Assembly: GCA_003167215.1 (NCBI GenBank)
Contig: PMTV01000066.1
Coordinates: forward strand, 1 to 60,387
From: Acidobacteriota bacterium
GTDB lineage: Bacteria > Acidobacteriota > Terriglobia > Acidiferrales > UBA7541
Direction of reading: 5' to 3'
DNA: 60,387 nucleotides
Shown here piece after piece: positions 44,574 through 45,157 of this stretch (position 1 is the stretch's first letter; each line of letters begins with the position of its first letter). The position numbers and the translations under genes are program-made. The notes beneath the pieces were generated by a model. It was not told where the DNA came from and did not search any database. It was given only the letters and a program-made list of their open reading frames with translations.

Positions 44574-44603
44574 TTGACAGAAGAATATTGGGTCGGCAAT
44601 GAT
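44574..44603 (+). promoter_or_regulatory. putative promoter of the UGA-containing peroxiredoxin gene
   Basis: TTGACA (44574-44579), an 18-base spacer and AATGAT (44598-44603). The GTG at 44609 lies five bases after the -10, so the mRNA would be leaderless. Confidence 0.4.
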
Positions 44604-44608
44604 TCTAC

Positions 44609-45157
44609 GTGCAGGAAACTCTCAGCAAGAGGCTCGCAGATATCGTTCTTCCGGACGCCAATGGCCAAGAAATCCGTCTGGGTTCGTTATGGGAGAGCAG
44701 GCCGGCCATCGTCGTTTTTCTTCGCCACTATGGCTGAATTTTTTGCCGCGAGCACACCGCGCAGTTGCGCGAACACGAACAAGCCTTCCGGAACAAAGGC
44801 GCTTCTCTTGCCGCCATCGGCCTTGGCGACCGACACTATGCAGGAATTTTCCGCGAAGAAACGGGAATCGCGTTTCCCCTGTTGATCGACGAACAACGCC
44901 AGGCTTATGCCATCGCTAACTTGCGCTCCGCTAATTTGCTGCACATGGCTCGCCGCGACAATTTTAAGAGCCGCGACCGCGCGAAAGCGGCCGGGCATCA
45001 TCAGCACAAACTTGGCCAGAATCCTTTTCAGCTCGGCGGGAGCTTCATCTTCGCGCCGGGAAATATCGACCGCTTCGCCCATCTGAGCAAAACCTTCGGC
45101 GACAATGCAACTCCCGCTACGCTTCTTGCCGCTCTCGATAAAGGTGAGTGGACTTAG
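44609..45157 (+). CDS. peroxiredoxin-like (AhpC/TSA_2, PRXL2 type) putative selenoprotein with in-frame TGA
   Basis: 182 residues if TGA 44735-44737 (codon 43) is read as selenocysteine. Without read-through the frame splits into a 42-codon 5' part and a 3' part. The 5' part has a thioredoxin-fold entry (LADIVLPDANGQEIRLGSLW) and ends FLRHYG; the 3' part continues IFCREHTAQLREHE. In PRXL2/AhpC-TSA_2 proteins this block is RHFG-C-x-x-C-REH, so UGA replaces the first active-site Cys, giving U43-x-x-C46. A GC hairpin follows (44758-44771). The rest is collinear with the family to the end. It would reduce peroxides or disulfides in the cytoplasm. A nonsense mutation of a TGC/TGT codon is the alternative. 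No sel genes lie in the window. Confidence 0.8.
44758..44771 (+). promoter_or_regulatory. candidate bacterial SECIS hairpin
   Basis: CGCGC (44758-44762), loop AGTT, GCGCG (44767-44771). The loop G is 27 bases after the TGA. Bacterial SECIS elements lie directly 3' of UGA with a small apical loop holding G in its first two positions, about 16-37 bases away; this fits. Confidence 0.6.

Follow-up and report, generated by a model that had tools for sequence, protein, structure and literature searches.

Is the TGA codon inside a peroxiredoxin-like gene of this stretch of DNA from a soil-type acidobacterium (the window, 60,387 nucleotides in full) read as selenocysteine (Sec), or is it a stop, an error or a reassigned codon? 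From the comparisons described below we conclude that the gene almost certainly encodes a bacterial selenoprotein of the AhpC-TSA_2/PRXL2/SelL-related thioredoxin-fold group, with Sec inserted at residue 43. The gene is easily missed, as standard ORF calling yields only the 3' half or drops it altogether, and with it goes a conserved redox enzyme of soil bacteria that probably depends on selenium. Table 1 lists the features of the locus.

Table 1. Positions of the gene and its proposed recoding features in the window
Feature	Position	Strand	Remarks
Predicted selenoprotein gene, 182 aa, PRXL2/AhpC-TSA_2-type peroxiredoxin-like	44609..45157	+	GTG start, TAG stop
Putatively recoded UGA (Sec43), opening the UxxC redox motif	44735..44737	+	TGA in 14/14 same-family orthologues spanning the site; TGC in four distant homologues
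TGC (Cys46), second UxxC residue, putative resolving Cys	44744..44746	+	Invariant in alignment A1; opposite Cys47 of human PGF synthase
Bacterial SECIS-like hairpin CGCGC-AGUU-GCGCG	44758-44771	+	Loop begins 26 nt past the UGA; conservation compared with a synonymous null

The reading frame on both sides of the TGA

The sequence-only reading had described a frame that starts with GTG at 44609, carries TGA at codon 43 and is flanked there by FLRHYG and IFCREH. Coordinates, terminator (TAG at 45155-45157) and flanks are all confirmed: codon 43 is the sole internal TGA of the frame and the read-through product of 182 residues has the motif FLRHYGUIFCREH (FLRHYG-U-IFC-REH). The upstream in-frame stop at 44600 makes GTG 44609 the natural start. 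It is the only in-frame start between that stop and the UGA which matches the conserved N-terminus, and several orthologues also start with GTG at the same position. We compared the gene with its close relative L017 and found a dN of 0.09 and a dS of 0.51 upstream of the UGA and a dN of 0.04 and a dS of 0.51 downstream. Purifying selection acts on both sides of the TGA, in agreement with the earlier statement that frame and similarity are intact on either side. Together with the Pfam matches and the recurrence of the TGA in dozens of other genomes, this places the TGA-containing frame far beyond chance.

It had also been predicted that automatic annotation would find only the 3' half, and the mechanical ORF list indeed gives just 44765-45157 in this frame, an ORF of 130 aa that starts with TTG. 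This listing is what speaks for a reading in which translation really ends at the UGA and the downstream ORF makes a protein of its own, initiated internally. Such a product would be missing the first beta-alpha units together with both redox positions, and the invariant block FLRHYG-x-xFC-xEH precedes the proposed start at 44765. Just one copy in the host's bacterial family, L031, is without its N-terminal half, and it stands alone. We consider a separately translated 3' product very improbable.

Conservation of the TGA codon among relatives

The gene is present in 16 of the 89 genomes of the host's bacterial family. All 14 full-length orthologues besides the window gene (61-88% identical) carry TGA at the same codon and Cys three residues further on. 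Across the phylum we found relatives in 24 genomes besides that of the window, and all but one of them have the internal TGA. For a contig scan of named genomes we used peptide patterns in which the site was written as Cys, so that the scan was not biased towards TGA and rather favoured Cys homologues. Nevertheless TGA was observed in 43 of the 47 relatives retrieved, as opposed to Cys in three (L122-L124) and GGA in one (L093). These 47 come in part from the same genomes as the family and phylum searches, and without duplicates there are 71 distinct proteins. Most relatives belong to the Acidobacteriota, with a few binned as Planctomycetota, Actinomycetota, Armatimonadota and Deltaproteobacteria.

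Four Cys homologues were found overall (L060, L122, L123 and L124), all with TGC at exactly the Sec codon. The search for relatives with TGA or Cys at this site, as proposed by the sequence-only reading, accordingly returned both, and another residue (Gly) in a single case only. UGA conserved in orthologues combined with Cys codons in some homologues is also the pattern used as a test for bacterial selenoproteins. Within the sample taken, Sec appears to be nearly universal and Cys rare in the UxxC subfamily, which is an unusual feature.

TGA differs from the Cys codon TGC by one base and most of the sequences are metagenome assemblies, so we have to consider that the gene is a pseudogene, or that a mistake in sequencing or assembly turned TGC or TGT into a stop. 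The same codon is TGA in the 14 family orthologues and also in relatives whose sequences come from dozens of separate assemblies, which excludes a misread TGC. For a pseudogene, the dN values far below dS on both sides and the conserved stem and loop (see below) would be out of place. Given the conservation of the TGA and the dN/dS values we reject this explanation as extremely improbable.

Several sequences deviate from the common pattern. L031 (G012:C134:109133-109468) is a same-family copy whose N-terminal half, with the Sec site, is missing although the copy is not located at a contig end; it has likely decayed. In L093, from the Terriglobia MAG SRVP_25, GGA (Gly) at position 2627 replaces TGA in an otherwise intact orthologue, which may reflect loss of Sec by a single-base change or a fault in the assembly. 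L123 and L124 are nearly identical CxxC homologues from bins labelled Methanoregulaceae (an archaeon) and Fimbriimonadaceae (a bacterium), and probably represent a mis-binned contig or a very recent transfer. Three acidobacterial sequences (L071, L072 and L073) have two in-frame TGA codons three codons apart, giving UxxU as in SelL, followed by a strong hairpin. In the tree they lie inside a well supported branch (99/96) which also contains UxxC rows.

A hairpin downstream of the TGA

Bacterial SECIS elements are characterised by a G within a small apical loop (PMC1088965). The window gene has such a hairpin just past the UGA, with a 5-bp stem and the loop AGUU. Folded alone it reaches -9.0 kcal/mol (z -2.6). 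In a 60-nt fold of the window sequence the hairpin lies outside the minimum-energy structure, and RNAalifold gave only a weak consensus of -2.3 kcal/mol for the 60-nt alignment. Owing to this weak consensus we tested the specific stem against synonymous-codon resampling instead. Each protein was kept while its codons were redrawn from the usage of the same genes in 2000 draws, which controls for the conserved peptide.

The 5-bp stem was present in 55 of 65 distinct Sec sequences compared to 3.1 +/- 1.7 expected (maximum 11), and the Leu codon overlapping the loop was TTG in 58 of 65 compared to 7.5 expected; these counts are not independent, as the sequences are related. Among the Sec homologues less than 50% identical to the window gene, 15 of 21 have the stem where 0.7 would be expected (maximum 4). 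In several homologues whose peptide differs, the stem is rebuilt with other bases, with compensatory stems in L061 (GCGGUGC-AGGU-GCAUCGC), L071 (GCGGCGC-AGUU-GCGCCGC) and L074 (UUGCUGC-AGUU-GCAGCAA). Two pairs that we counted as failures, L063/L067 and L065/L070, can by eye pair in another register. The stem is absent from all four Cys homologues. For the window gene alone the synonymous null gave a P of only 0.03-0.05, and the strength of the result lies in the comparison across related sequences, which indicates that the hairpin is conserved more strongly than the coding sequence requires.

Selenocysteine machinery of the host

The host genome (3.78 Mb, 68 contigs, 96% complete) was searched for the sel genes, and all four were detected above their cut-offs, as the sequence-only reading would lead one to expect. 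The tRNA-Sec scored 64.6 bits and has the anticodon TCA (UCA in the tRNA) and a long variable arm, in agreement with ARAGORN. We obtained 463.7 bits for selA, 372 bits for selB (cut-off 242) and 319.5 bits for selD, the latter despite truncation by a contig end; the selD fragment has no in-frame TGA. Across the bacterial family selB was found in 77 of 89 genomes. It occurs in all 16 carriers of the gene except for two incomplete assemblies, G022 (77% complete) and G079 (73% complete). That the gene is a probable selenoprotein, as originally suggested, is supported, and nothing that had been named in advance as evidence against it was encountered.

The host also carries a formate-dehydrogenase-alpha-like gene with an in-frame TGA (L133, G000:C15:4901-5671, minus strand) and the motif NQARVUHGPT. 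We take RVUHGPT with an in-frame TGA to be the Sec signature of the formate-dehydrogenase family. L133 is a candidate for a second selenoprotein, which argues that the Sec system is in use. A ResA-like WAxxUGC selenoprotein was also sought in the host genome and only weak matches free of TGA were obtained. In the same bacterial family, many further genes resembling Prx or ResA (25-38% identity, e.g. L032, L036 and G078:C67:10404-10673) have one internal TGA. These internal TGAs suggest a larger selenoproteome in the family, and some of them may be terminators inside the match.

We also considered a general reassignment of UGA in this organism, for instance to Trp or Gly, which would turn codon 43 into an ordinary sense codon. 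The GGA of L093 could be taken as a hint at Gly. The remaining four homologues without TGA carry Cys, the full Sec machinery is present, and TGA is in use as a stop: among the 29 stop-to-stop frames in the window that reach at least 300 codons (spurious ones included), 7 end with it, and the orthologues L017, L018, L020 and others terminate in TGA. Internal TGAs at non-Cys positions of conserved genes, which would speak for reassignment if common, were not noticed among the genes looked at. We reject reassignment, as TGA functions as a stop and codon 43 is conserved, and regard the chance that it holds as negligible.

Protein family and fold

The read-through protein matches PF13911 (AhpC-TSA_2) with 53.3 bits (cut-off 27, E 4e-14), so the family relationship proposed earlier holds, and PF00578 with 42.7 bits (cut-off 26, E 6.5e-11). 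Over nearly its whole length it also passes NCBIfam NF040769 (SelL_rel_redox), marginally, with 120.7 bits against a cut-off of 120 (0.7 over). An AlphaFold2 model based on a 15-row alignment had a pLDDT of 91.2 and a pTM of 0.88. Its best solved fold match is human prostamide/PGF synthase (9usa, Z 22.4, rmsd 1.9 A over 160 residues), followed by the peroxiredoxins Bcp/PrxQ and AhpE with Z between 17 and 19. The best PDB sequence match is 9us9 (E 1.4e-9). In the sequence alignment U43 and C46 stand opposite Cys44 and Cys47 of human PGF synthase, the residues which were mutated in 9usa.

The claim that the TGA falls on the active-site cysteine of a peroxiredoxin-like protein needs to be narrowed. 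The TGA is indeed located at the redox site, but the motif is UxxC (U43, C46), which is nearest to the PRXL2/SelL-related branch and is not that of a classical TxxC peroxiredoxin. The classical motif PxxxTxxC/U is absent from RHYGUIFC, which has His at -3 of Sec and no TxxU. The UxxU motif of SelL proper is likewise absent from the window protein and all close relatives, which have UxxC, and occurs only in L071-L073. Gene neighbourhood gave no hint at the substrate, with neighbours kept only in the closest relatives L017 and L018, and a search of phage records returned no match.

Proposed mechanism

The analysis shows conservation of the frame, of the UGA and of its hairpin, the presence of the recoding genes, and the fold family; Sec insertion itself, a catalytic cycle and a substrate we infer as follows. 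The hairpin, 21-34 nt past the UGA, would recruit SelB with Sec-tRNA(UCA), and selenocysteine would be inserted at residue 43. The resulting U43-x-x-C46 redox centre would directly follow the core strand (residues 33-37). Sec43 may then act as the attacking nucleophile and reduce a peroxide or another oxidised or disulfide substrate. Cys46 would resolve the selenenic acid to a selenenylsulfide, and thioredoxin could reduce the latter and so recycle the enzyme. We propose a UxxC selenol/thiol pair because the T of the classical peroxiredoxin motif is missing and because U43 and C46 stand opposite the Cys pair of PGF synthase.

The product is most likely a UxxC thiol/selenol oxidoreductase. The selenoprotein may, in place of a peroxidase, be a thioredoxin-like disulfide reductase or isomerase or a prostamide-synthase-like reductase, and we give this role somewhat less than an even chance. 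It would suit the UxxC motif, which is not the PxxxTxxC/TxxU of classical peroxiredoxins, and PGF synthase with Cys44/Cys47 as the best match in both structure and PDB sequence, whereas the Prx-type folds of Bcp/PrxQ and AhpE also match strongly. A reductase role would bear on the substrate alone and can be reconciled with the selenoprotein described above.

Comparison with known systems

Literature searches on SelL-related proteins, acidobacterial selenoproteomes and the mechanism of prostamide synthase contributed nothing beyond the sources cited here. Among the predicted prokaryotic selenoproteins compiled in a 2022 review (PMC9312934), pfam13911 (AhpC-TSA_2) appears in Table 1 in the UxxS form only; the review also has pfam00578 Prx-like selenoproteins with UxxC or UxxU. 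The window protein shares the Pfam domain and Sec at the first motif position with the UxxS proteins, but has UxxC with an invariant second Cys. With the UxxC Prx-like protein WP_010940744.1 it has the motif and the Prx-like fold in common and it also passes PF00578. It is set apart from that protein, by description, through its better match to PF13911 and the signature FLRHYG-U-IFC-REH, which is PRXL2/SelL-related. The UxxC form of pfam13911 is missing from the 2022 list; the kind of selenium protein is already known.

Vertebrate SelL contains two Sec residues which are two residues apart (PMC3316567). The window protein and its close relatives differ from this UxxU arrangement by having UxxC, while the acidobacterial UxxU homologues L071-L073 fall into the same tree. 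As the protein passes the curated cut-off of NF040769, a family bearing SelL's name, we place it within a known kind, as a new member or a modest variant. Human prostamide/prostaglandin F synthase (PRXL2B) is the best match by sequence and fold with aligned redox positions, at an identity of only ~24% and with CxxC where the window protein has UxxC. Eukaryotic SelU (PRXL2A-type) is presumably related through UxxC; the structures matched here were those of PRXL2B alone. The bacterial UxxC and UxxU forms are in this way tied to the PRXL2 fold used in animals, and since Sec forms far exceed Cys forms in our sample the subfamily is useful for asking why Sec is retained. As a tentative and rather doubtful extension, the UxxC AhpC-TSA_2 proteins might form a widespread undescribed bacterial subfamily centred on the Acidobacteriota, in which Sec is ancestral and near-exclusive and from within which the SelL-like UxxU forms branch. 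If this were true, the UxxC subfamily would be the bacterial counterpart, and possibly the source lineage, of eukaryotic SelU and SelL.
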